Shown here piece after piece: positions 6,120 to 43,132 of a DNA stretch of 43,331 nt. The stretch comes from Verrucomicrobiota bacterium. Lineage in GTDB: Bacteria; Verrucomicrobiota; Verrucomicrobiia; Opitutales; Opitutaceae. Position 1 is the first letter of the stretch; each line of letters begins with the position of its first letter. The stretch spans positions 1 to 43,331 of the forward strand of contig JAPLTN010000068.1 in NCBI GenBank assembly GCA_026398135.1, in the 5' to 3' direction. A program made the translations under genes and the position numbers. The notes under the pieces were generated by a model. That model searched no databases. It saw only the letters and a list, made by a program, of their open reading frames with translations, and was not told the DNA's origin.

Positions 6120-6127
6120 GCTTGCAG

Positions 6128-7283: not shown

Positions 7284-7295
7284 TAGAATGACGCA

Positions 7296-7324: not shown

Positions 7325-7341
7325 TCCACCTCTTTTTCAAA

Positions 7342-7539: not shown

Positions 7540-7565
7540 GCCCGGCCGCATCAAGCAGCCGCAAA

Positions 7566-7597: not shown

Positions 7598-8611
7598 ATG
7601 CCCAAAATCAAACCCGCCCTCTTCCGGCCCACCCCCGCCAATCTCACTCGGCTGGCCAACCAGCTCCGGCGCGGAGGTATCGTGGGTGTACCCGCCGAAA
7701 CCGTTTACGGTTTGGCGGCCAACGCATTGGACGCCACCGCCTGCGCCCGGATTTTCAAGGCCAAGGGCCGCCCCGCAAACGACCCGCTCATCGTCCACCT
7801 CGCCCGCGCCGCCGATATTGGAAACGTGGCCCTTACCAACCCGGCGGCGGAACGACTCGCCGAAGCGTTCTGGCCCGGACCGCTCACCTTGGTCTTGCCC
7901 AAAAAACCCTGCGTGCCCGATTTAGTGACCTCAGGCAGAAACACCGTGGCCGTTCGTGTGCCCGCGCACCCCGTTTTCCGACGCCTCATCAAGGCCTGCG
8001 GCTTCCCCCTCGCCGCCCCCAGCGCCAACCCCTTCGGCTACATCAGCCCGACCTGCGCCGCCCACGTACGCGATAGCCTGGGCAATACCGAACTGCGCGC
8101 CATTCTCGACGGCGGAGACTGCACCATCGGCGTGGAATCCACGATTCTCGACCTCTCCGATCCTGCTCATCCTCGATTACTCCGGCCCGGCGGACTCGCC
8201 TTGGAAAAAATCGAGTCCGTGCTTCAACAAAAAGTCCTTGGTCCAAAAAAATCAGGCAAGTTAACCCTGGGCTCCTCCGCCCCTGCTCCCGGCATGCTGC
8301 CCCAGCATTATAGTCCGCATACCCCCGTAAGGCTTCACCCCGCGCTTTCCCTAAAAAACATACAACGCATCCCCGCCAACGAAGCGATTGTACTCCTCCT
8401 CCGACCGCGCCAAAAAACGCTTTTAACGCCCAATGTATTCTGGCTGAGCGAAGCCGGGCAGCTGGCGTCAATCGCTCGTAATTTATTTGGTCAACTGCGC
8501 CAGCTCGATCAGGGCGCGTGGTTAAAAATCCACGTGGAGCTACCCACCAGCAACGAAGGCCTGGCACCCGCGATTCGCGACCGACTTACTCGGGCGGCCG
8601 CGAAAGTTTAG
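7598..8611 (+). CDS. L-threonylcarbamoyladenylate synthase (Sua5/TsaC type)
   Basis: The 337-residue protein matches the long Sua5 form. The N-terminal YrdC domain (about 10-205) contains GGIVGVPAETVYGLAANA, KAKGRPANDPLIVHL, FWPGPLTLVL, TVAVRVPAHPVFR and PLAAPSANPFGYISPT, and the GVESTILDL motif. A linker with APGMLPQHYSPHTP follows, then a C-terminal Sua5 domain (about 245-335). It makes threonylcarbamoyl-AMP for the t6A37 modification of ANN-decoding tRNAs. The ATG directly abuts the T-tract of the rpsR terminator, leaving no room for a Shine-Dalgarno sequence. Translation would depend on read-through mRNA with a GC-rich hairpin just upstream, or on a leaderless transcript. Confidence 0.92.
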   Translation: MPKIKPALFRPTPANLTRLANQLRRGGIVGVPAETVYGLAANALDATACARIFKAKGRPANDPLIVHLARAADIGNVALTNPAAERLAEAFWPGPLTLVLPKKPCVPDLVTSGRNTVAVRVPAHPVFRRLIKACGFPLAAPSANPFGYISPTCAAHVRDSLGNTELRAILDGGDCTIGVESTILDLSDPAHPRLLRPGGLALEKIESVLQQKVLGPKKSGKLTLGSSAPAPGMLPQHYSPHTPVRLHPALSLKNIQRIPANEAIVLLLRPRQKTLLTPNVFWLSEAGQLASIARNLFGQLRQLDQGAWLKIHVELPTSNEGLAPAIRDRLTRAAAKV

Positions 8612-8625
8612 CATACACGGCGGAC

Positions 8626-10839
8626 CTAAGCCGGATTATTATCCCGCGCCGGCGTGTCATCATCCGCCGCAACTACGTAATAATCCTTGTAAGATTTATC
8701 GTAATACTGCGCGTAATAATAACCCGAGACGGCCAGATTCAGGCCGTTTAACACCGCTCCATAACAAGTGATGTTCGATTCGAGCAAGCGCTTGGCCGAA
8801 GCTTGCGCCGCTTTACGCCGCACCTTGTTAAAGAAAATCGTAAAAATCGAACCATCCACCAAAGGCAACACCACCAAGGCATCGCTCACCGCCGCCAGAG
8901 GAGGCGTATCAATAAAAACCCGGTCGTAACGCTTGCGCAGGTCGGAAATCATGATCTCAAAACTCTTGTTGTTGAGGATTTGGGTAGGATTCTTGGCCCG
9001 ACCGCCCGTGGTAATCACATCTAGATTCGGATGCACTCCCTTGATAAGCACATCCTCAATCGTCGCCGCGCCTGAGCAGATATCAATAACGCCCTTCAAG
9101 TTTTCACGACGGAATGACTTGTGAATATTTGGTTTACGCAAATCGCAATCCACCACGCAGACCTTGTCACCGTGCGCCGCATAAGTCAGCGCGAGATTGG
9201 TCGTCGTAAACGACTTGCCTTCGCCGGGAACGGTGGAGGTCGTAAGGAAGACCTTGGCATCCTTGGCGTCATCCCGCAGCCGAAGGCTGGAATGAAGCGT
9301 TAAGAATGCCTCCGCCACCTGACGGTCCGCATTATTAATAACAATCTGAGCCTTGTCCGGCTGCTCCATTTTCTTAATTTGCGGAATGATACCCAGGAGC
9401 GGCAGGCCCACCACCGACTCAATATCAAAGGAGCTCTTCACCCGGTCATCAATAAAGGCAACGAACAAGGCAAAGGCCAAGCCCAAGCCCAAGCCACCCA
9501 CCAGGCCCATACCAATATAGAGCGTTATTTTAGGCTCCACATAACGATTTTCCGCCGAAGGCACCGCAGCATCGACCTTGCGCGCCCCCGTCTCTTCACG
9601 CGTCGCCTGCATATTGACTTCACGCATGCGTCCTTGAAGTTGCGCTAAAATAGCCTCGTTGATCTTTAATTCGTTTTCCTGCGCCTGATATTGTACACTT
9701 AAACGGTCCAGCGCCAAAGTGGCGGTAGATTGCTCCGTCAGGTTTTTCTGCGCCTTTTCGAAATTACTCAAAGCATTTTCATACTCAGCCTGAATACTCG
9801 CGGAGGTGGAGCGCAACGCGCGATCAAGCTCACGCTCCGCTTGCGACAACGAATTAGCCGCCTCCATCATCCTGGGATGCCGGTCGCGATAACGCTCGCG
9901 CATTTGCGCGATCGCAATTTTCTGCGTGGCAATTTGCTGTGTAAGCTGGGCAATCAGCGGATTGGCGGAGATAAAGGTCAGCTCCGTAAGATCACCCTTG
10001 TTCTTCAAACGATCCTGAACCTGCTTCCACCGAACCTCGGCTTCCTTGAGTTTGGAATCCGTTTGAGTAACCAGCATGTTGAGCTGCTTGAGCGTCTCGG
10101 TGACGATATCTTTGCGTTGATCAAGCGACACCATGTCGTTTTTCTCGCGATAGGATTGAAGCGAAAGCGCCTGCTCCTCAACGCGTTTACGTTGTTGTTC
10201 GGCACGAATCTGCAAATCCTGAACCACGATCATCGACTCATCAATGCGCACACGTGCATTCCATTGCAGGAATTCGTCCACGAACATATTGGCAATCTTT
10301 GCGGCAACCACCGGATCGGGATGGCGATAAGCTAATTGAACCACTAAACTAAGGCGTAAAGGAACGATTCGACGATTCTGGCCTAATACTTCAAGTGGGG
10401 TCAGCGGGTCGCCCCAGCGGCCCTTTTCATAAGGCTTCATGAACTGTCTCAGTTCATCGCCCGTGATACGCTCGGAAACCCGCTTGATAATAAGCGCGCT
10501 TTCCATGACCTTGACCAGCGTGTTCAAATCCTCGGTGCCTCGCACCGAAGTATCGATCACATTTTCCGAGTTAAACGCCTTCGCGTCCTGCCGAAGCACT
10601 TGTACACTCGCGGTGGATTCGTAAATCTTAGTCTGGCTAAAAGTATAAACCAGCGCAGAGGAAAAAACGACCAGGAATACCACCACTACATACCAAATAC
10701 GCTCACGTAAAATGAGCAGGTAGTCGTTTATACTGCGCTGGGCGGTGCCTTCACCGTAACCAACCGCAGGGTATCCATAACCGTAACCACCGTACTCGGC
10801 CGGGGCTTGGCCAACGGGTTTCTTAGATTGCGAATCCAT
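8626..10839 (-). CDS. Polysaccharide co-polymerase fused to BY-kinase (Wzc-type tyrosine autokinase)
   Basis: The 737-residue inner-membrane protein begins with a Gly/Tyr-rich cytoplasmic tail and transmembrane segment 1 (about 48-68). A Wzz periplasmic domain follows, with long coiled coils (about 200-415) and transmembrane segment 2 (about 438-462). The cytoplasmic bacterial tyrosine kinase domain shows Walker A STVPGEGKS (535-543), Walker A' VCVVDCDLRKP (560-570) and Walker B VFIDTPP (641-647). The C-terminus has a tyrosine cluster of eight Tyr between 707 and 721, the expected autophosphorylation tail. Such proteins control chain length and export of surface polysaccharide through a Wza channel. 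The next gene upstream on the strand encodes a Wza-like protein 21 bases away, so the two form an operon. No glycosyltransferases are in the window. Confidence 0.95.
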   Translation of the reverse strand: MDSQSKKPVGQAPAEYGGYGYGYPAVGYGEGTAQRSINDYLLILRERIWYVVVVFLVVFSSALVYTFSQTKIYESTASVQVLRQDAKAFNSENVIDTSVRGTEDLNTLVKVMESALIIKRVSERITGDELRQFMKPYEKGRWGDPLTPLEVLGQNRRIVPLRLSLVVQLAYRHPDPVVAAKIANMFVDEFLQWNARVRIDESMIVVQDLQIRAEQQRKRVEEQALSLQSYREKNDMVSLDQRKDIVTETLKQLNMLVTQTDSKLKEAEVRWKQVQDRLKNKGDLTELTFISANPLIAQLTQQIATQKIAIAQMRERYRDRHPRMMEAANSLSQAERELDRALRSTSASIQAEYENALSNFEKAQKNLTEQSTATLALDRLSVQYQAQENELKINEAILAQLQGRMREVNMQATREETGARKVDAAVPSAENRYVEPKITLYIGMGLVGGLGLGLAFALFVAFIDDRVKSSFDIESVVGLPLLGIIPQIKKMEQPDKAQIVINNADRQVAEAFLTLHSSLRLRDDAKDAKVFLTTSTVPGEGKSFTTTNLALTYAAHGDKVCVVDCDLRKPNIHKSFRRENLKGVIDICSGAATIEDVLIKGVHPNLDVITTGGRAKNPTQILNNKSFEIMISDLRKRYDRVFIDTPPLAAVSDALVVLPLVDGSIFTIFFNKVRRKAAQASAKRLLESNITCYGAVLNGLNLAVSGYYYAQYYDKSYKDYYVVAADDDTPARDNNPA

Positions 10840-10860
10840 ATCAAATTTTCAGTAATGCTA

Positions 10861-11523
10861 TTAAAATATACGCTCAGGAACCTCGATCACATCGTCCACT
10901 TGAAGCGACCAACTATTATCCGAAGTGCCGCTGATTAATTTCTCGGCGTTAATTGTATAAGTTACACTTACACCCTTGTCGTCCTTGCGTATAATCCGAA
11001 CCCGCGTCTTGTCCGCCAAACGGCTAAAGCCGCCCGCACGCGTGATGGCCTCAAGTAAATTCAAACCGCGTTCCGGAGGAAAGGGCACGGCCTGGGGAGT
11101 ATTGACCGAACCGATCACATTCACGGCGCGCTCAGCATATTTAAGCACTATCAGCGATACTTGAGGATTCACTAAGAAATCCCGGTCATACAGCTGACGG
11201 ATAAACTCCTCGGCCTGGCGCACGCTGCGCTTACGCACGTCAATGGTGCCGACCAAAGGCAGGGATATGGTGAAGTCCTGCGAAACCGAGACCTCTCGGG
11301 TCAAATCGTCCTCTTGGAAAACCCGGATCTGCAACACATCCGAAGGCCTCAATAAATAATCAGCCGTGGAGGGTGCCACCGAAGAGGACGTGCTGGGGAC
11401 CGGCATATTGCCGGCACCCGTTTTACCCTCTTGCGCGAGGGCGAAATGAGTAACCGCAAACAACAGAAATACGGTGCGAGGTAACAATCTGAATAACTGG
11501 CGACTGATAGGGAGAATACGCAT
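10861..11523 (-). CDS. Wza-type polysaccharide export protein
   Basis: The 220-residue exported protein has a signal peptide (about residues 1-32, ending ALAQ) and a polysaccharide-export domain (about 58-135: DYLLRPSDVLQIRVFQEDDLTREVSVSQD, then ISLPLVGTIDV). A SLBB domain follows (about 140-215: VNVIGSVNTPQAVPFPPERGLNLLEAITRAGGFS). It is shorter than E. coli Wza and lacks a lipobox Cys, so it may form a periplasmic or outer-membrane channel without a lipid anchor. I chose the ATG at 11523: an in-frame start at 11550 would lie inside the terminator hairpin at 11537-11562, and the signal peptide starts properly at 11523. It is transcribed ahead of the BY-kinase gene. Confidence 0.92.
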   Translation of the reverse strand: MRILPISRQLFRLLPRTVFLLFAVTHFALAQEGKTGAGNMPVPSTSSSVAPSTADYLLRPSDVLQIRVFQEDDLTREVSVSQDFTISLPLVGTIDVRKRSVRQAEEFIRQLYDRDFLVNPQVSLIVLKYAERAVNVIGSVNTPQAVPFPPERGLNLLEAITRAGGFSRLADKTRVRIIRKDDKGVSVTYTINAEKLISGTSDNSWSLQVDDVIEVPERIF

Positions 11524-31014: not shown

Positions 31015-31335
31015 TCAGTTACGAGGCGATTTCTTAAGGCTGGCGTGGCATTTTCGCCACTGCGGAAGGTGGGCGGTAAGGAGTGCGTGGAAAACCCGGC
31101 CGTGGTTGGGGTGGCGGAGATGCAGCAGCTCATGCGCGATCACGTAATCTTGCTGCCGGGGCGGCAGGTCGAGCACGTCGCGGGCGAAACACACCCGGCC
31201 ACGCGTCGAGCACGAGGCCCACTTGCGGGTCATGCGCATGACCCTGATTTGGCGCGGCTGGGCCTGGAGGCGGCGCGCCCACTGCGCAACGCGGTGGCGG
31301 AATACCTCCATCGGCGTGAGCAAGACGCGCTTCAT
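31015..31335 (-). CDS. YgjP-type zinc metallopeptidase-like protein
   Basis: The 106-residue protein carries HELLH (68-72) with a third His at 78 in HLRHPNH, and the YgjP-specific MTRKWASCSTRGRVCF segment (about 35-50). This is the short YgjP/SprT-like metal-dependent family. E. coli-type members are longer, so this copy is only the C-terminal catalytic part. Homologues of this type are often seen beside type I restriction genes, but their job there is not established. Its ATG overlaps the hsdR stop codon as ATGA, giving translational coupling. Confidence 0.85.
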   Translation of the reverse strand: MKRVLLTPMEVFRHRVAQWARRLQAQPRQIRVMRMTRKWASCSTRGRVCFARDVLDLPPRQQDYVIAHELLHLRHPNHGRVFHALLTAHLPQWRKCHASLKKSPRN

Positions 31336-34300
31336 GACGAGGAGGCGGGCCGCGCGCGCATCACCTTTTCAGCTAACGCGATCATTTTGGCACCACCGAC
31401 AACTTTGAGCAGCACCTTGTAAATCTCCGCCTTGAGCTGGCGCAGTTCGTCGGCGTTGGAGCTCGCGTTGGGGAAGCGGCGATAGGCGTCCTCTATTTCC
31501 ACCGCAAGGGAGCGCGCCATGGTTTCGTCGTAGCCTTCGCGTTTCAGTTCCCAGAATACGCCAAAGGCACCCGCCGCCAAACCGCTCGCCTGGCGGGCAC
31601 GTTCTGCTTCGAGGCGTTCGCCCATGAGTGTTTCGAGCTGTTCGAGCGCTTGTTGGGTCGAGGCCTGGCGCTCGTCCAACGCTTCCATCACGCCGGCCGC
31701 GCGCTCGGCAATGGAAATGAGGTGGGGCTCGGTCGTTTCGTTTTCGTCCGGGTCCAGACTGCGGATCAGGTTAATGACCTTTTCCTCGTCCGGGCCTTTG
31801 CGCACGCGGAGGGCGGCGAGGGCGGCTTCGTCGAACTCGACGGTTTTCGTCAGGCGGTCGAGGCCGTGGGCGACGGCGTTTTTCTGGACGAGCATCGCCG
31901 TCTTGTTGGCGAGTTCTCCGACGAAGCTCGTGGTCCGGCCGTAGGCGGCCTGCATCATCGCGTAAAGATCGGCGAGGCGGTTGTAGGGCGCGATGTCGTC
32001 GGCCAGCGCGGGGTCGGGCGAGAGGATTTCGTAGAGCGTTTCTATCTCCTTGAACAACTCGGCGAACACCTCGCGCGCCTCTTTGCGGAAGAGGGTTTGG
32101 TAGAGCAGTTTTTCCAATTGGGCGTCGCGGTCCGGGCCGCCCGGCTTGGGCAGGTATCGTTTGGCGGGGCCGTCCATCAGTTCGCGGAAACGCACGAGCA
32201 GCACGTCGAGTCCTTCGATGACGCCGGTGTAGTCTTCGGAGTCGAAGGCGAGGGCCTTCTTGAGGTCCTTGAGGATGCCCACAAAGTCGATGATGAGGCC
32301 GCAGGGTTTCTCGACCCCGCGCGCGTCTTCGTAGGGGCGGTTTACGCGTGCGACAGCCTGCAGCAGCACATGGTCGCGCATCGGCTTGTCGAGATACATG
32401 CAGTAAAGGATCGGCGCATCGTAGCCGGTGAGGAGCTTGTCGGTGACGATGAGGATTTGTGGCTGCGTGCCGGGCTTGGGGAAGGTCTTGCGCACCGCTT
32501 TTTCCGCCACGTTTTCGAGCTGGAGTTCGGCCACCAGCGGGCGCTCCACTACGTCGTTCGGGCTCTGGCTGTAAACGACGGCCGAGCACTCGGGCGGCAG
32601 CAGGCGGTCGAGCGCCTGCTTGTATTTGGCGCAGGCCTCGCGATCCACCGCCACTAGGAAGGCTTTGTAGCCGAGCGGCTCCACGTTCTCGCGAAAATGC
32701 GTCGCCACGAAGGCCGCCACCTTGGCGACGCGGTGGTCGGCCTTGAGGAAGGCCTTCAGGTTAACCGCGCGGTCGAGGGCGCGGTTGAGGTCGTCGATGT
32801 CGCTCACGCCCTCGGTCTCGGCCAGGGCGAGGAATTCCGACTCCAGCAGGCTCTCGTCCAGGGTGAGTTCGCTGGGCGCGAGGCTATGGCGGAGTTTGAG
32901 CGTGGTGCGGTCGCGGATGGATTCGGCGATGGGGTATTTGTCGAGGTAGCCGTCGGCGTCTTGCAGGCCGAAGGTCTTGAAGGTGCCTTCGCCCTTCTCG
33001 GTTTTGGCGATGGGGGTGCCGGTGAAGCCGATGAAGGTCGCGGCGGGCAGCGCGCCCATGAGGTAGTTGCCGAGGTCGCCGCCGGTGGTGCGGTGGGCCT
33101 CGTCGATGAGCACGAAAAAATCTTCCCGCGCGGTGATGCGCGGCGGCATGCCGTCGAACTTGTGGATCATCGTGATGATGAGCCCGCGAAAATCCGCCTC
33201 CAGCAGCTCGCGCAGGCGGGTGCGCCGGTAGGCTTTTTCCACCGCGATGCCGGCCTGGCTGATCTCGCCCAGCAGGCGATCCACCCAGCCCGCGAGCTGG
33301 CCCTCGAGTTCGTTGCGATCCACCACGAGCAAGACCGTCGGCGCGGTGTCGGCGTTCGGCCCGGTCAGGAGCAGGCGCGCGGCCGTGATCATGGTGAAGG
33401 TCTTGCCCGAGCCTTGGGTGTGCCAGACGAGGCCGCGCGTCTTGCGCGGGTCGCGGCAGCGGGCGACGACCTTTTCGATGGCGCGGGTCTGGTGCTGGCG
33501 CAGGACGGTTTTCTTGAGGTCGTCGTCCTTGGTGAAAAACAGGATCCACTCGCGCAGCAGGGTGAGGAAACGCGGTCGGTCGAAGAATGATTTTACGTGC
33601 TCGCCATAGGTGGGCGGCGCGCTCGCGGCAGGCTCCGCAGCGAGCGGCAAATCCTCCAGGGGCTCGTCGCCGGTGGCGTAGGTGACGGGAGGAGGGATCA
33701 CGTAACGCACGCCGCCGCCCAGCCCGGCGGCCAGGTCTTGTTTCCAGTTAAAAACCGTCTTGTTGCCGTAGCCGCCCCAGGTGACGCCGTAGAAATACTC
33801 GATCAGGTGGGTGAGGTTAAAAACCTGCGGCGCGACCAGCATTTCGGGCGTCTCCTTTTCGTAGCGGCGCAGCTGCACGAGGGCCTTTTCCATCGCGCCT
33901 TTGAGCTTCGGATTTTTGCACTCCACGAGCGCGACCGGCACGCCGTTGATGAGGAAAACGACATCGGGCCGGTTGCCCTTTTTCCACTGCTGGCGAAAGG
34001 CCCATTCGACCGTGACCTGAAAGACGTTGCGGGTGGCGTCGAGCGGCGCGCCGAAGTCGATCAACCGCACGTTGCGCGAACGTTTTTCCTCCGCGACGAA
34101 GGTGGTGCGCTGGCCGCGCAGCCATTCGAGGAGCTGCTTGTTGCCCTCGATGGTGGGCGGGGCGGCCTCGATCTCGGCGATGACGGACGCGACGTTCTCG
34201 GTGGTGACCACCCCGGGGTTGAGGCGGAGGAGGGCGGCGCGGAGTTCGTCGTGGAAAAATAAGCCGCCCTCGCCGCCGCGCCGGTCGAGCGCCTCGACCT

Positions 34301-34385
34301 CGGAGACAAAGGCCCAGCCGGCGTCCACCGCATGGCGGACGAGCGGGAACTGCACGGTGGCGGCTTCGAGCGCGAGGTTGGTCAT
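31332..34385 (-). CDS. hsdR: Type I restriction enzyme, R subunit
   Basis: The 1017-residue protein has an N-terminal PD-(D/E)XK nuclease domain with D141 in RPDVVFLING and E155-x-K157 in LVECKNPK. The SF2 helicase motor shows Walker A TQGSGKT (323-329), DEAH (428-431), FTGTP (454-458) and a second RecA-like domain ending near QAVARVNRPY. A long helical C-terminal part should bind the methylase complex. It translocates DNA and cuts unmethylated DNA with HsdM and HsdS. The frame is open to 34436, but the ATG at 34385 overlaps the stop of the NYN gene as ATGA, which fixes the start. It lies 5 kb from hsdS, whereas these genes are usually adjacent or separated by one or two genes. Confidence 0.95.
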   Translation of the reverse strand: MTNLALEAATVQFPLVRHAVDAGWAFVSEVEALDRRGGEGGLFFHDELRAALLRLNPGVVTTENVASVIAEIEAAPPTIEGNKQLLEWLRGQRTTFVAEEKRSRNVRLIDFGAPLDATRNVFQVTVEWAFRQQWKKGNRPDVVFLINGVPVALVECKNPKLKGAMEKALVQLRRYEKETPEMLVAPQVFNLTHLIEYFYGVTWGGYGNKTVFNWKQDLAAGLGGGVRYVIPPPVTYATGDEPLEDLPLAAEPAASAPPTYGEHVKSFFDRPRFLTLLREWILFFTKDDDLKKTVLRQHQTRAIEKVVARCRDPRKTRGLVWHTQGSGKTFTMITAARLLLTGPNADTAPTVLLVVDRNELEGQLAGWVDRLLGEISQAGIAVEKAYRRTRLRELLEADFRGLIITMIHKFDGMPPRITAREDFFVLIDEAHRTTGGDLGNYLMGALPAATFIGFTGTPIAKTEKGEGTFKTFGLQDADGYLDKYPIAESIRDRTTLKLRHSLAPSELTLDESLLESEFLALAETEGVSDIDDLNRALDRAVNLKAFLKADHRVAKVAAFVATHFRENVEPLGYKAFLVAVDREACAKYKQALDRLLPPECSAVVYSQSPNDVVERPLVAELQLENVAEKAVRKTFPKPGTQPQILIVTDKLLTGYDAPILYCMYLDKPMRDHVLLQAVARVNRPYEDARGVEKPCGLIIDFVGILKDLKKALAFDSEDYTGVIEGLDVLLVRFRELMDGPAKRYLPKPGGPDRDAQLEKLLYQTLFRKEAREVFAELFKEIETLYEILSPDPALADDIAPYNRLADLYAMMQAAYGRTTSFVGELANKTAMLVQKNAVAHGLDRLTKTVEFDEAALAALRVRKGPDEEKVINLIRSLDPDENETTEPHLISIAERAAGVMEALDERQASTQQALEQLETLMGERLEAERARQASGLAAGAFGVFWELKREGYDETMARSLAVEIEDAYRRFPNASSNADELRQLKAEIYKVLLKVVGGAKMIALAEKVMRARPASSS

Positions 34386-35086
34386 GGTGAGGGCGGGAAT
34401 GGATTGGACTCGGGCAACGCGGCGGAAGGCGGGCAACGCCAGGCGTGCGGGCAGACCACGAACTTGCCGCTGGGCAGTTGCACGGCCTCGGGGAACTGGT
34501 GCCGCGCGTAGCTCTCGCGCGATAGTGTGAAGGAGTCGGGCGCGACGCGGGCCAGCTCCTTGTTTTTGCGGTCGAAGGGAAAGGCGAAGAGCAGGCGCTT
34601 GCCCGGGAATAGCTCGTGAAATACCGGCACGGCAGGGGCGTAGTCGGCGTCTCCGGAGACGATCACGGCTGTGTCGAAGGCGTTGCGCGCGGCTTGGCGA
34701 AACACCTCGGCGACGATGCCGATGTCGGTGGCTTTTTCCTGCCAGATGCGTTCGTAGCGGCCGAGCGCTTCGATCCAGATTTGTTTCGGCTTAAAGTGGC
34801 CGAGATGGTGGACGACGCCGGTGGCGGTGAGGGCGCGAACGTAGGTGCGATGGCGGGATATTTTATCGGGATCGGTCAGCGCGAGGTGTTCGGCGTAGGC
34901 GGTGAAATAGTGGACGCCAGCCAAGGTCGCGGCGGTGCTGATCGTATAGAGGTGGGCAGTGCCCAGTGCGGTGAGATCCAGCCATTTGAGCGATGCGTCC
35001 GGCATCGTTTTCTGCACCCGCTCAATGGAATGGTAGAGGTTGAATCCATCCACAAACAGCATCACTCGCGGGGCCGGATTACTCAT
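34382..35086 (-). CDS. NYN-domain (PIN-like) predicted nuclease
   Basis: The 234-residue protein has the NYN/LabA-like fold. The first Asp is D13 in VMLFVDGFNLYHS, with N16; the middle acidic residue is D121 in KATDIGIVAEVFR; and D146/D148 are in VIVSGDADYAPAV. This four-acid cluster is the metal-binding site of PIN-like RNases. The C-terminus (about 205-234) is Pro-rich. The start may be the ATG at 35086 or 35107 (MPETLAT...); the latter abuts the terminator T-tract. It is coupled to hsdR by an ATGA overlap. An RNase made together with the restriction subunit could act as a back-up abortive response. That role is inferred. Confidence 0.85.
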   Translation of the reverse strand: MSNPAPRVMLFVDGFNLYHSIERVQKTMPDASLKWLDLTALGTAHLYTISTAATLAGVHYFTAYAEHLALTDPDKISRHRTYVRALTATGVVHHLGHFKPKQIWIEALGRYERIWQEKATDIGIVAEVFRQAARNAFDTAVIVSGDADYAPAVPVFHELFPGKRLLFAFPFDRKNKELARVAPDSFTLSRESYARHQFPEAVQLPSGKFVVCPHAWRCPPSAALPESNPFPPSP

Positions 35087-35107
35087 GGTGGCGAGGGTTT
35101 CAGGCAT

Positions 35108-35137
35108 AAAAAAAGCCCGCCGGTCGTAACCGGCGGG
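35108..35137 (-). terminator. Strong intrinsic terminator before the NYN gene
   Basis: On the minus strand a perfect 9-bp GC-rich stem (35137-35129 with 35124-35116, loop TACG) is followed by GC and seven T residues (35114-35108). The next three bases are an in-frame ATG of the NYN gene. No gene on the minus strand ends just upstream of it, so it probably works as an attenuator on a short leader transcript rather than as a gene-end terminator. Confidence 0.85.
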
Positions 35138-35191
35138 GGGCCGACATGGCGCGGTAACAAAGTCCGGCACACGTTCGGGGATGATACCGCG

Positions 35192-35220
35192 ATCAATGCG
35201 CAAGCGCTTGCGCATGTCAA
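35192..35220 (-). promoter_or_regulatory. Promoter candidate with LacI-type operator in its spacer
   Basis: On the minus strand TTGACA (35220-35215) and ATTGAT (35197-35192) stand 17 bases apart. Overlapping the boxes by one and two bases is the perfect 20-bp palindrome ATGCGCAAGCGCTTGCGCAT (35196-35215). The CAAGCGCTTG centre with a symmetric CG core is the form of LacI-family operators. A bound repressor would block this promoter, which points to the NYN-hsdR operon through the terminator at 35108-35137. No LacI-family gene is in the window. Confidence 0.55.
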
Positions 35221-35964
35221 TACGCGGGTCGCGTAGGCCGTAAACAAAGCACCCGCCCTGGTGCGCAGTGCGTCCTCCTTGCGGACGAACGCCCGCGGCT
35301 TGGCGGATATGTTGAATTCAGGTTGCATGGGGAGGCGTCGCGCGGGCAAGTCGTTTTACCCAAGGGCGGGGCGTCCACCCACCCTCGTTAAATTTGACGC
35401 GGGAAAATTGTCCGGCAGGTCGAGGGAGGTGACGCGGCGGCGGAGGCCATGCGGCAATCGGGTTCGTTCTCCCCTCATGAAATCAAAGCGCAGACTTGCC
35501 GCCCAAGGCCCTTTGCGTGAGTCTGTGTCCGGAATCGCCCCCCAGACCGAACCGGCTCCGTATGGTGCTTTTTCCGAAAGGATAGGTCGGGGGGATTTCA
35601 TTTTGGCCAAAATTGGACATGTATCTTCCGACGGAAATTCAGTTTGCGGTAGAACCCCGGATTTTGCGGTGCACGGAAAAGACATGGCCTCCGATCCTGT
35701 AAAAGGACCGGAGGCTATTAAACGACTTGCACCGGTTCGCTGCCCATAAGGCGCGCGCGACAAATTCTGTTGCGGAATGGGTGGCACAATGAATTCCACA
35801 AGTGAAGCTCGGCTTGAGCGCCACCGCGATATGTCGCTTGTCACCATAGATTGTTGCGTTTTGTTACGCGCAGCCTGCCGCGTTTGAAAGTCGGCCTCGT
35901 GTCGTCGGAGGGTATCCTCCTCAGGGCGTTGGTGGGCGACCTTCTCATCTTCTAAACCACACCA
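35221..35964. other. Gene-free stretch between the restriction operon and the accessory genes
   Basis: No convincing gene is seen. A minus-strand open frame crosses the region but has no recognisable motif apart from the hsdS-tail repeat. Contents are the hsdS-tail repeat (35417-35443) and a hairpin at 35687-35715 (GCCTCCG-A-TCCT with AGGA-C-CGGAGGC) without a T-run. The remainder is probably decayed coding DNA. Confidence 0.6.
35417..35443 (-). repeat. 27-bp copy of the hsdS 3' end (right copy)
   Basis: This 27-base segment matches 40435-40461 at 26 positions and in the same orientation. In the minus-strand frame it reads RRRVTSLDL, against RRRVSSLDL in the C-terminus of HsdS. Similarity stops on both sides. 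With the left copy it forms direct repeats flanking the accessory genes. Confidence 0.75.
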
Positions 35965-36534
35965 ATGCGCCTTATGACCACTGACACCCCTCGCGTCATA
36001 CGTTTCGGTGCCCATAATACGCGCCGAAACCTTCCCGCCGCCTCCGCATCGAAGCGTGGAGAAAGCAACTTCCTGGCGCGGTTTGAGCGGGCCTATTTTG
36101 CGCAAGAAACTGGGCTTTCGGGTCACGAGTTCGCAGCTGGCCGGGAGTTTGGCTTGGATGGTTATGGGCGCGCCGATGTCCTTTGGATTGCTTGGAAAAA
36201 AACGCCCGATTCGAGCGATTTCTCGGCGTTGGCGTTGAGTAAGCGAATACATGTAACCGCAGTTGAGGCGAAGTTGAAGGACTGGAGAAAAGGTCTTCAG
36301 CAGGCGTCCCGTTATCGCTACTTTGCAAACCGGGCGTTGCTCGTATTGCCGCCAGACACCGCGCGTATCGCTCTCGGTTTTCTTGAGACATTTCGCAGTC
36401 TCAATGTGGGTCTGTGGGAATTTGACGCCGCAACCGGGCGGATCATCAAACATACCACGCCCCGCGTTCGCCGTGCCTTGAGTCGAAAGGCGCGACAGAA
36501 AGCCATTGAGATAATCCATCGGCAGTTAATTTAA
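35965..36534 (+). CDS. Predicted PD-(D/E)XK nuclease-like protein
   Basis: The 189-residue protein shows a nuclease-like core: D71 in GRADVLWIAW, E101-x-K103 in VTAVEAKLKDW and a helix with LQQASRYRYFANRALLVLPPD (111-131). The sequence D-(strand)-E-x-K followed by a Q/R-containing helix is the PD-(D/E)XK restriction-nuclease plan. This type of domain occurs in many proteins of defence loci and sometimes only binds DNA. It is the only plus-strand gene in the restriction island and is convergent with the AlbA-type ATPase gene, with stop codons overlapping by 4 bases. The N-terminal 30 residues are basic. Its partner is not clear. Confidence 0.72.
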   Translation: MRLMTTDTPRVIRFGAHNTRRNLPAASASKRGESNFLARFERAYFAQETGLSGHEFAAGREFGLDGYGRADVLWIAWKKTPDSSDFSALALSKRIHVTAVEAKLKDWRKGLQQASRYRYFANRALLVLPPDTARIALGFLETFRSLNVGLWEFDAATGRIIKHTTPRVRRALSRKARQKAIEIIHRQLI

Positions 36535-37703
36535 CTAGTATGGCTTCGGTCACCAAAACGCACGGTGACGCGAAAAAGCTGCCGGTCTTTGTCGTCCACA
36601 AAATCAATGCTCGGATAGCTGGCTACAGAGCGAGTGACTCCCGTGCCGATACCCCGGTAGGGCAGAAGTCCATTGGCCGCAAACGATACGATCACTGAAT
36701 TTCGGATCGACGAGTTGCCTGCCCTGATGTGCTCAACCGTCAGGTGATTGGGCAGACTGCCCGGACTGATGATTTCCACCCTATCATCAAAACCAAACAA
36801 GCGAATGGGGGCATTCAGAAGATAATTCCGATGCAACAATGCATTTACCACCAACTCCTCCCACACCGCCTCCGGGACAAGCGCCTTCCCTTGTGAGTTA
36901 ACGGACTGGTCAGCCTGATGAGCTACCACGTTACGTTTGATAAAAGACATCGCCGACGCGAACAACTGGTCCAGTCGCCCGTCAAAATCCGCACTGTCGC
37001 GATACGTCGAACCCGTTTCAACCAGGCCGTTAAACCAAACCGCTTTGATGACAAAGGCCGGCTTGAAGCGTTGGGGGTTGCGACCGAACAGCAGCAGGCC
37101 TGCAAGGTTCAGTTCCTCTCCATCGGCGAGGTTCAGGTTACCGAGCAGACGCGCGAGCGCGCGCGCATCGAGATCCCCCACCGGACTTCCGTAGCGCTTC
37201 TCATAGTAGCGACTAAATTCATCCAGGTTCAGCTGGGAAACATCACACCGCCGCACCGGGACTTCGTCTGGTTGGAGCAGATCGCTCGCTTGGAATAGAC
37301 GGCGCAGTTCCTCCTTGGCCACGATCTTGCGCTTATCAGCCCCCGATTTTTGCCAGATTACACCATCAGAGTCGAAATAGGGCTTGTCCTCGCCTGCTTC
37401 AACCGTGACGACCATCACAATTACCCCATTCACGTTCACGTTTTCCACAGTCGGAGCGATGGGGTTGCGAACATGCTGCGACGCGGCGTTCGAGATAAGG
37501 TTATTGTGACGAGCGACCTCGTCGGCAGACAGCCCTACCAGCGAGCCGTTGTCGTCCACGCCAAGCAGCATCATGCCGCCGTTGGAGTTGGCGAAAGCAA
37601 CCATTTCGGCCGCCGCCTGTTTTTCATTGTTCAGCAGGCGCTTGAATTGATGCCGGCTATCCTCGCCGCGCTGGATGATTTCTACGATTTCTAGTGCGTC
37701 CAT
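36531..37703 (-). CDS. AlbA_2 (Schlafen-like) and HATPase_c_4 domain protein
   Basis: The 390-residue protein has an N-terminal AlbA_2 domain (about 10-130) with SRHQFKRLL, EMVAFANSNGGMMLLGVDD and WQKSGADKRKIVAKEELRRLF. A middle helical part (about 150-250) follows, and then a GHKL-type ATPase remnant, HATPase_c_4 (about 275-390), with EELVVNALLHRNY (282-294), DDRVEIISPGSLP (306-318) and RGIGTG (350-355). Proteins of this type are annotated as RNA-binding or RecG-like regulators and are common in type I restriction loci. The start overlaps the end of the PHP/ATPase gene by 13 bases, so the two are translationally coupled. The AlbA_2 domain is related to Schlafen proteins that bind or cut RNA. 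Confidence 0.88.
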   Translation of the reverse strand: MDALEIVEIIQRGEDSRHQFKRLLNNEKQAAAEMVAFANSNGGMMLLGVDDNGSLVGLSADEVARHNNLISNAASQHVRNPIAPTVENVNVNGVIVMVVTVEAGEDKPYFDSDGVIWQKSGADKRKIVAKEELRRLFQASDLLQPDEVPVRRCDVSQLNLDEFSRYYEKRYGSPVGDLDARALARLLGNLNLADGEELNLAGLLLFGRNPQRFKPAFVIKAVWFNGLVETGSTYRDSADFDGRLDQLFASAMSFIKRNVVAHQADQSVNSQGKALVPEAVWEELVVNALLHRNYLLNAPIRLFGFDDRVEIISPGSLPNHLTVEHIRAGNSSIRNSVIVSFAANGLLPYRGIGTGVTRSVASYPSIDFVDDKDRQLFRVTVRFGDRSHTS

Positions 37704-40363
37704 TGTTGGTAAATACTTTGACGCAGCTCGAAGGCGCGCTGGCCGCCCTCCATCACCGCGATGATTTTATTTTGGATTTCGGGAGCGTCAGTCGAGCCCG
37801 TGTCGAGGCTCAACGCACCGTCCTCGTAGGCACAGGCCCCCACCATCTCAGCTTCACCGAGCACGGGTATGTTGGCATTGTGGGTGGCGAAAATAAACTG
37901 ATGCTTTCGCTTCATCTCACCGAGGCGAAGAATCACGTCGGCGTAAATAGTTTGATTGTCTAAGTCGTCTTCCGGTTGATCGATTAACAGCAGGTCGTAA
38001 TCACCCTTCTCCAACAAGAACAGGAGCAGGGCCGAAGTGCGCTGCCCCAGACTGTGTTTTTCGAGGGGCACTCCATTACGTTCCAGCACCAGCAGGTCCG
38101 GCACGCGATAAGCGACAAGATCAGCAAGCGAGTCACGAAGACGCTCCTCGAGTTTCACTTGGGAGCTGGGCGTGGTGACGATCTCCTTCCAGCGGGGCGC
38201 GGGTTGCTCCATGTCTTCGAACAAACTGATGCCGTCCACGAATTCGCTGGCGAGACGGGCAACGGTTTCCTCCCGAATGGACGTTCCGCTGACGAGGCTT
38301 AGCAAAAAACGGGCGAAGGCGTTTTTGTTTTCGCGATAACCAAGTTTCAAGCGGATGGGGAGCTTACGGGTATTGAGCTCGTCTGTCTTTCCCTTGAGGA
38401 AGGTGTATTCGGCGTGCCAGCATTCGCGCAAGGAGTGAAGGGCGTCGCGCAGCGCGCTCCGTGTGGTTTCCCGCCGTTGGTTTTCCTTTTCGAGCTCGGC
38501 CAATGCCAACTCCACCGCCTGTAGCTTGCGCTTCAGATTTACGTAGCTGTCTGCGTCCAGGGATACGTGGTGGATGGCCCGGCGGACGGCCGCGAACTCC
38601 TCGTCCAGGCTCTTGCGGCGGGTCTCGATCATGACGCGCAGGGACCGGATCGCAGCCTGCGCTTGGCGGAGTCGCTGCTCGCTGGTCTGAAGATCACGCA
38701 GGCTCTCCGAAACCGTGTCGAGCAGGCGGACAGCTTCGGCGATTTCCTGCGGATTTTCCACGGAGGCGATGCGGCGCCAACTCGCGAGATCGGCTTCGAT
38801 TCCCGGGCGTGCTTCAGAAAGCCCATCGGCGATGTTTCCGAGCCAGTCGGCTATGGACTGGAGATTGGAGAGGTCCGCATTGTAGGTGACCTGTCGCTGA
38901 AGCTTTTCGCCGACCTTCCTTTCCTCGAACAGGCGGAGCTCTTCCCGGAGTTTTGCCTGTTGCTCCAAATAAGACTGCCGCCGAGCGAGGGTGTCGGTTT
39001 GTTTGGTCAGGCGTTGCACCAGCTCGCGCGCCCGCCCTTCGGCAGCTTGGGTCGCGGCGCGACACTCGCGCAATTCGACACCGTAAAAGCGCTCCAAGAG
39101 GTCGGTGTTGCGGCTTGATTCACCTAGCTGGCTCAGGTCCTTCTGGCCGAAATAGAGCACACGGAGCAGGCTGTCCGGACGGAGGTTGTCGCGACGGATC
39201 CCTTGGGTGAAAACCTCGGGAGCCTGATTGAAGACACGGCGCACCTCGTATTCATCGCCTGCACTGTTGCGCAGGCGGATTTTGATGGTTCCGCCACTCC
39301 CGAGATGGGTATCGAGTAGTTTCTGGATGTAGGTTGGGTCGGCTGATTTTTGGTTCCCTTCGCTTTTGAGCTCCAATCCCAGGCCATAGCGGAGCAATTC
39401 AAGAATGGTGGATTTACCGCTGCCTCGTATACCGATGAGCGTATTCAGGCCGCTGTTCAGAGACCAGGACAGGCGGACGCCGCCCTCGACCTCCAGCGAT
39501 AGCAGGTGGGGGAAATCCGCTTTGGTCGGCTGTGTTGCCACGTGCGCTTCATGATGGCGCAAAGCCAGTTTGACCGCCGCGAAAGTGAAGGCGCCAAGGT
39601 GTAGGTAAGTGCGCTTCTCGACCCCGCCGACTTGGTGCGCCTGACCTACCTTGGCCATTTCATCCGGGTCGGAGCCTTCGATGAAGGCCGGAAGGCTCGG
39701 ACCGAGCCAGCCACGCCATTTTTTAATCTCATCGCCGGTGCGGACCTTTTGAAACCCCAGCAGATTCTCGGCGAAAAGCGGATTGCGGCCGAGTTGCTCG
39801 ATCCTCCCGCCGCCTAAACCGGACGGATGGAAAATCCCACTCGCTTGCTCCACGTGCGCCGCCACCGCGAAGCTGTCTCGCCCGTGTTTTTCGCGCTGAT
39901 CGTGTATTTCCTGCAGGAGTTTTTCCAGGCTCCACCCGCAGCGTTCGTTTTCCCCCGTGCGTTCACGAACGGAGGTTCCGTAAAATGCGGCGTCGAGAAA
40001 CGGGTTGATTGAGTCGCCGGGCTTTAACCACGAAGAGGGGTCGAAAATCACCAGCACATGGATGCCGTTGGCCCCGTCGTTCACCGATAACTCCACGCCA
40101 GGTAAGACCAGGATGCCGCGTTTGCGTCCGGCCTTTGCGAGTTGGTCGAATTCTTCGAGATCGAAAAGATTGTGATTGGTGACGACCGCGATTTCGACCT
40201 GCTCGGCCTCCAAACGATCCAGCCATAGCGAGACGAAGAAATTGGGGTCTCCGTTGAACCTGAATTTTTTGTCGGCGGAGGTGTGCAAGTGAAAATCCGC
40301 CCTCACCCAACGGTTGCCGTGAGGGAAGTGGGCGGTGGCAAAAGGGAGGGCTTCTGATTGCAT
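37691..40363 (-). CDS. PHP domain fused to an SMC/ABC-type ATPase (TrlF-like)
   Basis: The 890-residue protein begins with a PHP phosphoesterase domain (about 20-260): HLH (25-27), NH (63-64), GVEL (E91), H170 and SDPDE (231-235), most of the usual metal ligands. From about 290 follows an SMC/RecF-type ATPase. Walker A is GIRGSGKST (311-319), a long coiled coil fills about 420-680, an ABC-signature-like HSLGQRTSALL lies at 770-780, Walker B is LLLIDQPEDD (791-800), and the His switch is in ATHN (826-829). It resembles proteins I recall being named TrlF-family. Such PHP-ATPases occur in defence loci. A plausible model is DNA-end sensing by the ATPase that controls a PHP nuclease, but this is inference. 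It follows hsdS by 52 bases on the same strand. Confidence 0.88.
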   Translation of the reverse strand: MQSEALPFATAHFPHGNRWVRADFHLHTSADKKFRFNGDPNFFVSLWLDRLEAEQVEIAVVTNHNLFDLEEFDQLAKAGRKRGILVLPGVELSVNDGANGIHVLVIFDPSSWLKPGDSINPFLDAAFYGTSVRERTGENERCGWSLEKLLQEIHDQREKHGRDSFAVAAHVEQASGIFHPSGLGGGRIEQLGRNPLFAENLLGFQKVRTGDEIKKWRGWLGPSLPAFIEGSDPDEMAKVGQAHQVGGVEKRTYLHLGAFTFAAVKLALRHHEAHVATQPTKADFPHLLSLEVEGGVRLSWSLNSGLNTLIGIRGSGKSTILELLRYGLGLELKSEGNQKSADPTYIQKLLDTHLGSGGTIKIRLRNSAGDEYEVRRVFNQAPEVFTQGIRRDNLRPDSLLRVLYFGQKDLSQLGESSRNTDLLERFYGVELRECRAATQAAEGRARELVQRLTKQTDTLARRQSYLEQQAKLREELRLFEERKVGEKLQRQVTYNADLSNLQSIADWLGNIADGLSEARPGIEADLASWRRIASVENPQEIAEAVRLLDTVSESLRDLQTSEQRLRQAQAAIRSLRVMIETRRKSLDEEFAAVRRAIHHVSLDADSYVNLKRKLQAVELALAELEKENQRRETTRSALRDALHSLRECWHAEYTFLKGKTDELNTRKLPIRLKLGYRENKNAFARFLLSLVSGTSIREETVARLASEFVDGISLFEDMEQPAPRWKEIVTTPSSQVKLEERLRDSLADLVAYRVPDLLVLERNGVPLEKHSLGQRTSALLLFLLEKGDYDLLLIDQPEDDLDNQTIYADVILRLGEMKRKHQFIFATHNANIPVLGEAEMVGACAYEDGALSLDTGSTDAPEIQNKIIAVMEGGQRAFELRQSIYQQWTH

Positions 40364-40415
40364 GGCGTAGGGTTAAGGAAGGTTTCGCAGACGGCAGAAG
40401 GAAGGCGAGACGCGA

Positions 40416-41597
40416 TCAACTGGTCAAATGGGCGAGGTCGAGGGAGGAGACGCGGCGGCGGGCGGTGAGGAGGTCGTCGAGGAGGGTGCGGAAGAGCTCG
40501 CGCAAGAGCGCCTGCCTCGCCTCGTGGTGTGCGATCTTCGCGTCCAGCGTCGCCAGCATGGCGGCGATTTCGCGTTGCTCGGCGGGGGCGGGCAGCGGGA
40601 CAGGTTCATTCTCGAATGAGTTTCGATTTAGGGTCGGGACCGCGACCCCCGCACGAAACCGCGTAAGATCGATTAAATTGATCCAATGCGACGTGAAAGA
40701 AGGGTCATTTCCTTGAAAGTCCTTCACGTATAGCACGACATTATGAGCCCAAAAATCTGTCGGAATGAACATGGCCTTGCCGGCAGATGATCCACTTCTA
40801 ACGACCGTTACTCCAGGGCCACGAACGTTTGCGATGTCGTGGTAACCGATGATGCGTGTCGCTCCAATTACGGGCACGGTTCCCTCGCGAAAGTCGCCTT
40901 TGATGAGGTCTGCACCTCTTTGCAGCGTTACGAACTTTGAGAACGGCACGACCTCCCAGCTTTCGGGGACAGGGCCGATCGTAGTTTGTTTTTGGGATTC
41001 GTTGCGGAGGCCGCGGGTGAAGAGCTGGCGGAGGGCGGCTTGCTTGAGTTCGCGGGCCACCCGCACCAGGTCGCCCTCCACCGCCACCGCCGCCTGCACC
41101 TTCCCCAACACCGCCGCGATCTTCCGTTGCTCGTCGATGGGCGGCAGCGGCACCGCCAGCTCGGCGAGCCGGTTGCGGGACAAATTCGGGATAGTCGTGC
41201 GATTACCGACACCCTCAATCAGGCCGAAAAGCGTGATGCCTCCTTCGAGCGCGAATTGGTAGAACTCGGGGCTGATGTCCGGGCGTTTCGGACGGAGCCG
41301 GTGAAGGTGATTTTGAAAACTACACTCGTCAAACTGGCCTTGCCAGACGGCGGCACGGCCGATGTCGCCGCCTTCGCAGACCAGCAAATCGCCGGAGCGG
41401 AGATTTTTCGCGGCGAATTCGGCGTCGGTGAAAAACATGGTGTCCACGTCGGTGAGATCGAACCGGCCCCAGAGCACATTCGAGGTGCGCAGAAACGGAC
41501 GCTTAGGTTCTTGTCCGCGCGAGGCGGGGGTCACGGATTTACCCGCACCGATGTCGAACAAGTCGCCGATAGTGGTCGTAGGCCAAGGCGCGCTCAT
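40416..41597 (-). CDS. hsdS: Type I restriction enzyme, S subunit
   Basis: The 393-residue specificity subunit has two target-recognition domains, each followed by a conserved helix. TRD1 (about 1-150) ends in [47 protein letters not shown] (about 150-197). TRD2 (about 205-340) ends in [55 protein letters not shown] (about 336-389). The paired PLP...EQR-I-A-L motifs are the hallmark of HsdS. The two recognition domains differ from each other, so the target should be asymmetric and bipartite. The start overlaps the hsdM stop as ATGA. A minus-strand frame runs open upstream into hsdM, but it is out of phase with that gene and is not real. Confidence 0.93.
40435..40461 (-). repeat. 27-bp direct repeat inside the hsdS 3' end (left copy)
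   Basis: These bases encode RRRVSSLDL of HsdS, the conserved end of its last helix. A second copy with one mismatch lies at 35417-35443, 5.0 kb away in the same orientation. The pair flanks the PHP/ATPase, AlbA and nuclease-like genes. Confidence 0.75.
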
Positions 41598-43132
41598 ACG
41601 AGTTTCCCCAAGACGGCAGTGAGTTCGGTGGCCAGTGCGGCGGATTTGGCATCGAGCGCCGTAAGGTCGGCGACGATGTCGGGCAGCGGGCGGAGCTGGT
41701 TGTCGATCTCCGCCGCCACGAAGCGGCTCGGGCTGAGGTTGAAATCGTTGGCGGTGGCTTCGGCGGTGGTGATGGTTTTGACGAAGCCGGGGACGTCCAC
41801 GCCGGCGTGGTAGGCGGCGGCGATTTTTTGCACGGCCTCGGGCGGCAGATAATTCTTCGGCGTGCCTTTCTTCGCCTCGCCGGCGGCGTTGACGAGGGTG
41901 ATGCGGCCACGCCGGTCCTTCGGTTTTCCGCGGCGGAGGAAGATGATCACGCCGGGGGCGGTGGTGTTGTAGAAGAGGTTGTCGGGCAGGAGGACGACGC
42001 CGTCGATCAGGTCTTGCTCGACGAACCATTGGCGGAGGGCGCGTTCCTTGTCCTCGTTTTTGCTGCCGGAGCCGCGCGAGACGGCGCCGGTGTCGAGCAC
42101 GATGGCGGCGCGGCCGCCGTCGGCGAGGCTGGCGGCGGTGTGCTGCAGCCAGGCCCAGTCGCCTTTGCCGGAGGTGTTGCCGCCCTGGCGCTCGAAGCGG
42201 TCGAAGCCGTCGTGCTCGAACACGTCGGGGTCGAAGGTCTGGTTCCACATCGGGTTGGCGATGATGAGGGGGAACTGGCGCAGGCGGGTGCCGCCTTCGG
42301 CGCGGAACTTGGGGTTGCGCATGGAGTCGCCGCGCACGATCTCGGCCTGGAGGTCGTGGATGATGACGTTCATCCAGGCAATGGCGTAGCTGGAGCCCTG
42401 GAGTTCCTGGCCGTGGAGGCGGAGGGGGAGTTTTTTGGCGGCGGGGTCGCGTTTTTCGGCGACGAGCTGGAGCTTGATGAGCAGGCCGGCGGAGCCGCAG
42501 GCGTAGTCGTAGGCGTCCTCGCGGGGGCGGGGCTGGAGGATCTCGGCCATAAGGAAGCCGACCTCGGTGGGGGTGAAAAACTCGCCCGCGCTCTGGCCGG
42601 CGCCCTCGGCGAATTTGCGCAGGAGGTATTCGTAGCAGCGTCCGAGGAAGTCGGGCTCGACGTCTTTCAGGCCGAGGCGGTAGCGGGGATCGGAGAGGAT
42701 TTCGATGACGCCGCGCAGGGCGGAGTCGCTGATCTCGCGTTCGCCGCCGGCGCCGACGTGGTTGAAGTCCACTTGGTCGATGATGCCGAGGAGCTGGGTG
42801 TTTTGGCGGGCGACGGCGCGGGTGGCGGTGGTGATGTGTTCGCCGAGGCTGGCGGGTTTCTTGCCCTCGGGCCAGGCGTGGGGGGCGCGGCCGGAGAGGA
42901 CGGGCCAGCGGGCCTCGGGCGGGAGGTAGAAGCGGACGAGGGCGTGGTCGGCCTCGATCAGGGTGGTGGCGGTATCGGCGTCGCCGTAGGTCTGGGTGAG
43001 GCGGGCGACCTCGTCGTCGAAGACGTCGGAAAGGCGTTTGAGGAAGACGAGGGGGAGGAGGTAGTCCTTGAACTTGGGCGCGTCTTTCTCGCCGCGAATG
43101 GCGCAGGCGGCGTCCCAGAGCATCTGCTCCAT
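41594..43132 (-). CDS. hsdM: Type I restriction enzyme, M subunit (N6-adenine methyltransferase)
   Basis: The 512-residue protein has the HsdM N-terminal helical domain (about 1-130: [39 protein letters not shown]) and a methyltransferase domain. The latter has GEFFTPTEV (183-191), motif I as [10 protein letters not shown] (209-218) where DPACGSGG is usual, and motif IV as NPMW (293-296) where NPPF/Y is usual. These variants occur in a recognised group of HsdM proteins, so activity is likely. It modifies adenine at the HsdS target. Upstream of the ATG at 43132 the frame stays open to 43259 with the HsdM-like words STVLGNKS but no ATG, GTG or TTG, so the true start could be a rare codon or the extension could be fortuitous. 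A short partial gene ends at 43259. Confidence 0.93.

Follow-up and report, generated by a model that had tools for sequence, protein, structure and literature searches.

The window analysed here, a 43,331-nucleotide stretch of Verrucomicrobiota DNA (contig JAPLTN010000068.1), carries a type I restriction-modification locus in which hsdM, hsdS and hsdR are open and collinear. Between hsdS and hsdR lie non-hsd genes that differ in relatives, as in loci with embedded accessory genes of the rlo or HEC kind, and family matches suggest that this cargo consists of defence genes. We read the hsdS–hsdR interval as a slot whose accessory defence genes have been overwritten several times, and a 27-bp direct repeat within it as a scar of replacement rather than a target-site duplication, a reading to which we give roughly two chances in three. 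The slot is real and busy: it contains the scar, swapped cargo and pieces without their partners, and scars recur at other loci, which supports a swap site and not a single insertion. The order of events and the recombination route are what we infer from these observations.

The repeat emerged from comparison of the window with itself: 35417–35443 and 40435–40461 agree at 26 of 27 positions in the same orientation, as a preliminary description of this DNA had claimed. The copy at 40435–40461 is the 3′ end of the hsdS gene on the minus strand; the copy at 35417–35443 is, by our reading, non-coding, its RRRVTSLDL frame running antisense to a nuclease-like gene. Against the 6-kb hsdS–hsdR interval the hsdS tail reaches a best ungapped score of 24, compared with maxima of 15 over 300 dinucleotide shuffles of the interval and 16 over 300 of the tail (Gumbel P 1.9e-7 and 4.6e-7, respectively, for the chance of such a repeat in the interval), and 6-kb stretches of the window without either copy score at most 14. 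Across the whole assembly, the best non-self match of 35300–35970 is the hsdS tail (E 4.6e-5; runner-up, E 0.04). The codon-level coincidence that the preliminary description had named as its own possible undoing was thus checked, and the repeat exceeds chance, with P about 2–5e-7 in the interval. The 35417 version of the 27-mer also occurs, with 2–3 mismatches, at the hsdS 3′ ends of loci L061 and L063 and of genome G009; since these ends nearly equal the 27 bp, an exchange of hsd ends would carry the 27-mer along.

The genes said to lie between the repeats were confirmed as TrlF (PHP plus SMC-like ATPase), SLFN_AlbA_2 and, on the opposite strand, a nuclease-like gene of 189 amino acids (aa), with NYN and hsdR beyond. 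The features of the locus are as follows.

41594–43132, minus strand: hsdM (N6_Mtase, HsdM_N).
40416–41591, minus strand: hsdS (Methylase_S).
40435–40461, minus strand: hsdS 3′ end, repeat copy (self-comparison of the window).
37691–40363, minus strand: TrlF-family ATPase (PHP plus SMC-like; NCBIfam NF045780, 433.7 bits, cut-off 350).
36531–37703, minus strand: SLFN_AlbA_2/RecG-C-like protein (PF04326, PF13749), with a 13-bp overlap with TrlF.
35965–36534, plus strand: nuclease-like gene, 189 aa, apparently left from a kinase/400-aa/nuclease module; 92% aa identity in G009 and L061.
35872–35937, no strand assigned: relic, 79% over 66 bp to L073 9409–9474, which covers the end of, and the sequence just past, a DUF3800-like gene scoring below the Pfam cut-off.
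35718–35772, no strand assigned: relic, 82% to L063 9875–9929, likewise between hsdS and hsdR.
35537–35599, plus strand: DUF3800-IX RNA without a neighbouring DUF3800 gene (Rfam RF02968, 49 bits, gathering threshold 36.8).
35417–35443, minus strand: scar, second copy of the hsdS 3′ end (repeat, shuffles, assembly search).
35238–35313, minus strand: relic, 91% to G009 11448–11523, an abiF-RNA-like segment.
35116–35137, minus strand: terminator-like hairpin directly upstream of NYN and within the sequence conserved alongside NYN at other loci.
34382–35190, minus strand: NYN cassette, hairpin plus NYN gene (open reading frame (ORF) 34382–35215; PF01936; PADLOC HEC-09).
31332–34385, minus strand: hsdR (TIGR00348), its ATG overlapping the NYN stop (ATGA).

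The swap is visible in relatives. G009 belongs to the same genus as the window, and its locus (L042, also L062; CAMCZZ010000002.1, same contig) aligns with the window at 95% DNA identity over hsdM and most of hsdS, at 94% over the hsdS tail (40437–40591), at 90% over the nuclease-like gene (35989–36524), at 91% over the 76 bp of 35238–35313 and at 81% over hsdR plus its downstream flank; 40592–40943, the region of the second target recognition domain (TRD), fails to align. The place of TrlF and AlbA_2 is taken in G009 by a Ser/Thr kinase and a 400-aa protein, which lie between hsdS and the nuclease-like gene. Neither TrlF (at E 1e-30) nor NYN found a match in G009, and the only 27-mer-like site in the 19.9 kb of it examined is its own hsdS end. 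Because G009 shares the nuclease-like gene but lacks a second copy of the 27 bp, the right edge of the swapped block lies at the 3′ end of that gene, 36524, and not at 35417–35443; the variable block does not have the repeats as both its edges, and the inserted module of the preliminary description is not supported as one block bounded by them. The cargo of L061 is the same kinase/400-aa/nuclease set with a Bro-N gene added ahead of hsdR. Among the window, G009 and L061 the nuclease-like proteins are 92–94% identical, within the range of HsdM and HsdR (87–98%), so the nuclease-like gene most likely stood in the common locus, and the window would have lost its kinase and 400-aa partners. The proposed search for loci of the form hsdS–NYN–hsdR free of the insert turned up this arrangement, with no further cargo gene seen, in G054 (L164), though within a different type I family; a TGA is reported within the NYN match there. 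The suggestion that type I loci contain a swap site for accessory genes holds up, given the other cargo in G009 and L061 and an hsdS–hsdR distance that runs, across 72 loci, from overlap up to 9.4 kb.

These 72 loci come from a contig scan with the window's HsdR, of which the best 80 of 372 loci were kept and joined by the window; 72 of the 81 have both hsdS and hsdR by hidden Markov models (HMMs), at least 300 bp apart in 54 and abutting in 18. Gene ends in the window were set by hand, which placed the hsdR start at 34387, two bases away from its ATG (34385). Tiles of 220 bp across about 3 kb on either side were each compared with the gap of the same locus. Truncated hsdS tails, hsdR heads or both lie on the same strand in the gap of 9 of the 54 loci (the window, L063, L071, L072, L093, L104, L110, L129 and L134), with lengths from 27 to 209 bp. 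The hsdS-end tile (last 220 bp) matched in 6/54 and the hsdR-start tile (first 220 bp) in 7/54, neither ever on the minus strand; end tiles thus gave 13/108 plus-strand matches against 14/1231 for the other 24 tiles (Fisher P 2e-8). Six of these 14 are one short repeat in L073, and a further 9 minus-strand matches in non-end tiles, mostly in L073, stand outside the 14. In the 54 gaps no internal piece of hsdS was found at E 1e-3; the single exception is an 18-bp tile match in L064.

Several of these loci preserve more than a tail. L063 reads hsdS – DUF3800 – RNA IX – hsdR head followed by hsdS tail (about 150 bp) – Bro-N – RNA VII – hsdR, and L071 reads hsdS – Bro-N fragment – NYN – hsdR head (6523–6665) followed by hsdS tail (6664–6757) – cargo – hsdR, the cargo past its scar comprising RNA VII, an RNA IX below threshold and a DUF3800 gene. 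L104 has the order hsdS – AriAB-like (PARIS) – hsdS tail – pAgo – further cargo – hsdR head – hsdR; at 1620–10987 it holds AriAB-like and pAgo_II-like genes in one hsdS–hsdR interval, split by the hsdS-tail scar. In L072, a DUF1186/SEC-C gene sits between imperfect repeats (86/103 columns) of hsdS tail plus spacer.

Such remains could arise if donor DNA from a relative, of the form hsdS tail – other cargo – hsdR head, recombined by homology at one conserved hsd end, the second end being closed by an illegitimate join or its redundant part being lost by deletion. The hsd genes would stay intact and the cargo would change, while remnants of earlier cargo and of hsdS tails and hsdR heads would be left behind. 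For the window this would mean that TrlF–AlbA_2 replaced the first two genes of a kinase/400-aa/nuclease module, that a DUF3800 cassette was reduced to its RNA, that one hsdS tail was kept and that a hairpin–NYN cassette came to lie against hsdR. We consider this route, ordinary recombination at the conserved ends followed by an imprecise second join, the most likely one: it would explain why tails and heads, not hsdS middles, are left over, why end-tile matches have a single orientation and why head precedes tail in L063 and L071, and it would require no enzyme within the interval. A second TRD that is not shared by the window and G009, next to a tail that is, fits this route as well. Loss of the middle from two complete tandem loci would give the same joins, and the data do not separate the two routes. 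We suggest more tentatively, at somewhat under even odds, that the conserved hsdS tails and hsdR heads serve generally as homology arms, at which lineages exchange defence modules through a cassette slot that works without a recombinase. The scars would then record successive replacements, and orphan DUF3800- and abiF-type RNAs might be kept as antidotes once their partner gene had gone. A single locus would in that case preserve, layer upon layer, the history of its anti-phage systems.

A number of points weigh against the reading of the interval as a repeatedly overwritten slot. A 27-bp scar alone cannot show its own origin, no hsdR head was found beside 35417–35443 in the window, and no strain pair displaying the swap event itself was found. 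At the sensitivity used, 45 of the 54 gap loci have no scar. Without the window the end-tile enrichment is 12/106 (P 1.5e-7); counting L093, L110 and L134 (30–44 bp) also as misses lowers it to 9/106 (P 3e-5), and dropping in addition the 28-bp head match of L072, which is probably spacer, to 8/106 (P 1.7e-4). These loci were picked by HsdR likeness to the window and are independent neither of it nor of each other, so the P values flatter; most, moreover, are contigs of metagenome-assembled genomes. In a second sample from the same order and other type I families (upstream hsdS in 34 of 41 loci, gap of at least 300 bp in 30), end tiles matched in 2/60 against 6/681 (P 0.13), non-significant and in the same direction; there hsdS lies more than 12 kb off in L184 and L190, the predicted hsdR start of L164 overruns NYN and understates the gap, and the six non-end matches include a 208-bp match in L165 to hsdR bases 220–440. 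Possibly the effect peaks within the HsdR family to which the window belongs.

Among other accounts, the one that survives best, at around one chance in eight, is a single element inserted at the end of hsdS, with target duplication or restoration of the gene end, whose excision would leave hsdM–hsdS–NYN–hsdR. It would account for a same-orientation repeat at both ends, for the L072 cargo gene truly flanked by hsdS tail and spacer repeats and for the hsdS–NYN–hsdR order of G054, but not readily for the nuclease-like gene in G009 without a second copy, for the separate affinities of the nuclease gene, the RNA and the relics, or for scar lengths as varied as those above, and no recombinase family turned up when the three genes between the two copies were scanned. 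Slightly less probable still is the duplication of an entire hsdS gene whose second copy then decayed to its tail, an origin that the preliminary description had put forward. In its favour, L063 retains a longer tail upstream of its last cargo gene; against it, the 54 gaps gave no internal hsdS at E 1e-3 beyond the 18-bp match, and in L063 and L071 the tail sits directly after an hsdR head. We consider it improbable that this is an hsdS-shuffling (phase-variation) locus whose spare tails serve specificity switching; a second TRD that differs from that of G009 next to a conserved tail would let the tail act as a recombination arm, but beside the scar nothing other than the tail matches hsdS, and the scanned genes include no recombinase family. 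Chance in GC-rich DNA, to which the composition of the 27-mer and a 45-bp match at 83% (E 2.9e-4) between the hsdS end region and contig C73 might point, is effectively refuted by the P values within the interval, and the end-tile enrichment across other loci speaks against it too; the C73 match, the next-best of the hsdS end in the genome, lies within a long ORF read as uvrA-like and was itself judged to be chance.

Occupants of the interval also occur as units elsewhere. G019, G097 and G086 carry the kinase, the 400-aa gene and the convergent nuclease-like gene side by side, in stretches of 12–19 kb without an hsd gene by HMMs, and L075, L089 and L130 carry them between hsdS and hsdR; we regard this module as a candidate defence system. 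It spans L042 8515–11186, L045 7372–10172, L046 9314–11427 and L047 7227–9892. Among the nuclease-like homologues examined, all but the three weakest matches (L009–L011), the 400-aa gene adjoins the nuclease-like gene in 12 of 15 non-window loci and does not in L142, L144 and L147. L142, seen more widely as L207, lies inside a type I locus with the order hsdS – nuclease-like – Fic-N-like – AlbA_2-like – hsdR (the Fic label by reading); since a lone nuclease-like gene persists there, the window copy is only putatively left over. In L207 (G180 C507) this gene, at 5066–5755, comes right after hsdS, and a weak abiF-like RNA scores 30.2 bits, below gathering. Neither the 400-aa nor the nuclease-like protein matched a Pfam family at its cut-off or a PADLOC family, and for the latter there was no Pfam match at E 0.01 and no PDB match better than E 0.29. 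Its residues D71, E101 and K103 are invariant in 9 sequences, and we take them to be the D...ExK active-site motif of PD-(D/E)XK nucleases; its structure model has a pLDDT of 39.4, from which the fold is not predictable, and that of the 400-aa protein 50.6. Searches of plasmids gave no relative of the 400-aa protein at E 1e-10 and one distant HsdR (32%) at E 1e-80.

TrlF and AlbA_2 likewise appear to form a unit. AlbA_2 lies directly downstream of TrlF in 4 of 6 TrlF relatives (6 of the 7 non-own matches, without a partial one in G562 C34), in stretches with no hsd gene by HMMs; of the other two, L202 has TrlF without AlbA_2 beside hsdS and near an HsdM-like gene, and L206 has TrlF with neither AlbA_2 nor hsd. 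The adjacent pair, in the same order, spans 36531–40363 in the window and occurs in L201, L203, L204 and L205. The window protein clears the NF045780 cut-off for TrlF-family ATPases and shows weaker similarity to the anti-phage Ppl; it differs from that family as described in its apparent pairing with SLFN_AlbA_2 and its embedding in a type I locus. The NYN protein matches PADLOC HEC-09 over its full length (148.9 bits, profile 3–203 of 203). Homology to other NYN loci begins at 35184–35190 in L164, L229, L230 and L232 and at 35221 in L231, from which the gene appears to travel with its upstream hairpin; four more distant NYN loci do not show homology of this extent. In 8 other NYN loci, several of them on short contigs, NYN is not next to hsdR.

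The remaining debris is largely related to RNAs. The DUF3800-IX RNA at 35537–35599 is the single copy found in its genome and has no DUF3800 gene beside it, although an RNA of this type, to judge from the name and origin of the family, presumably neighbours such a gene as a rule. Just one DUF3800 match exists in the assembly, next to an HsdM-like gene on contig C49; this contig (L211 1–3584) carries a second restriction-like locus, truncated by the contig end, with HsdM-like, DUF3800 and a gene read as DUF262-like. The relics by the window's RNA resemble gap DNA of L063, near a DUF3800 gene, and of L073, near the sub-cut-off DUF3800-like gene. Rfam searches of 7 loci (145,673 bp) returned six hits, every one a DUF3800-VII or -IX RNA that lies in the hsdS–hsdR gap and runs antisense to the hsd genes; the 4 hits from another 16 loci all lie outside it. 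Across 50 genomes RNA IX was found in 3, one copy each, in the gap, with 2 over the cut-off. A search of 7 genomes found RNA VII in 6 of them, within the gap in five cases (four of them over the cut-off); the RNA VII of the window's genome lies outside the gap, on C32, a contig without an hsd gene. In L061, L063, L064, L071 and L073 the hsdS–hsdR interval contains DUF3800-VII/IX RNAs directed against hsd transcription, and those of L061 have no DUF3800 gene alongside. Two RNAs of G009, a weak DUF3800-VII and one resembling abiF, stay below gathering; the second, 11448–11523, scores 29.4 bits against the abiF model (gathering 37), which its window homologue, 35238–35313, did not match. Relative to Rfam RF02967, RF02968 and RF03085 (DUF3800 RNAs and abiF RNA), the window thus has a DUF3800-IX RNA over gathering but no DUF3800 gene beside it, and an abiF-like segment that is sub-gathering in G009 and unmatched in the window itself. 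A repeat family suspected around CCTTGCGG dissolved on inspection, its segments matching DUF3800-type and abiF-like RNAs instead. The idea of tRNA targeting was dropped: ARAGORN detected no tRNA in either the window or L063, and a T-arm-like stretch read near 9700 in L063 was not confirmed. DUF3800 has been linked to noncoding RNAs (PMC10910872), and abiF RNA acts as an RNA antitoxin (PMC12373285).

Cargo was surveyed in 121 of 149 gap ORFs, a set without short or doubtful ORFs and without those of the window. Of 58 Pfam families matched, the 25 listed include AlbA_2 (10), Fic (9), DUF3800 (6), Bro-N (6) and protein kinase (4), along with RhuM (3), SIR2 (3), TIR (3), Piwi (2), SMODS (2) and NYN (2); many of these families have links to defence. 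Bro-N is a recurrent type I cargo, found between hsdS and hsdR at L061 7221–8078, at L063 10285–11139 and in L067, L077 and L123; these genes are 63–85% identical to that of L063 and come from records titled Verrucomicrobia, Patescibacteria, Gemmatimonadetes and Desulfovibrio.

Defence genes inside restriction loci are known, and how they enter and leave is in our judgement much less clear. Scars would provide a sequence-level record of exchange and of module borders, hence a route to new systems, the candidates exposed here being the kinase/400-aa/nuclease module and the TrlF–AlbA_2 pair, and reading them in this way makes the exchange route testable by ordinary recombination assays. Among the matches listed from openly licensed literature (titles and abstract starts), none describes hsdS-tail or hsdR-head scars, which, given the restriction to such papers, is weak evidence of novelty. 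The rlo genes (R-linked ORFs) of Campylobacter jejuni resemble the cargo described here in being variable ORFs between hsdR and hsdS amid extensive hsd rearrangement (PMC5183652, citing Miller 2005); they differ in that the portion of PMC5183652 at hand mentions no such scars. TgvAB is embedded in Vibrio cholerae VPI-2 (PMC11411939, which also cites the HEC genes of Payne et al.) and PrrC in ecoprrI (PMC12707154). Like these and the HEC genes, the cargo of the window lies within a restriction operon, and its NYN matches PADLOC HEC-09; whereas the former, in the passages of these papers available, are single embedded systems, the window holds debris of several successive occupants. An accessory slot in type I loci is accordingly familiar, and it is the scar signature, the stacked relics and the exchange by homology at hsd ends, as we infer it, that look new.

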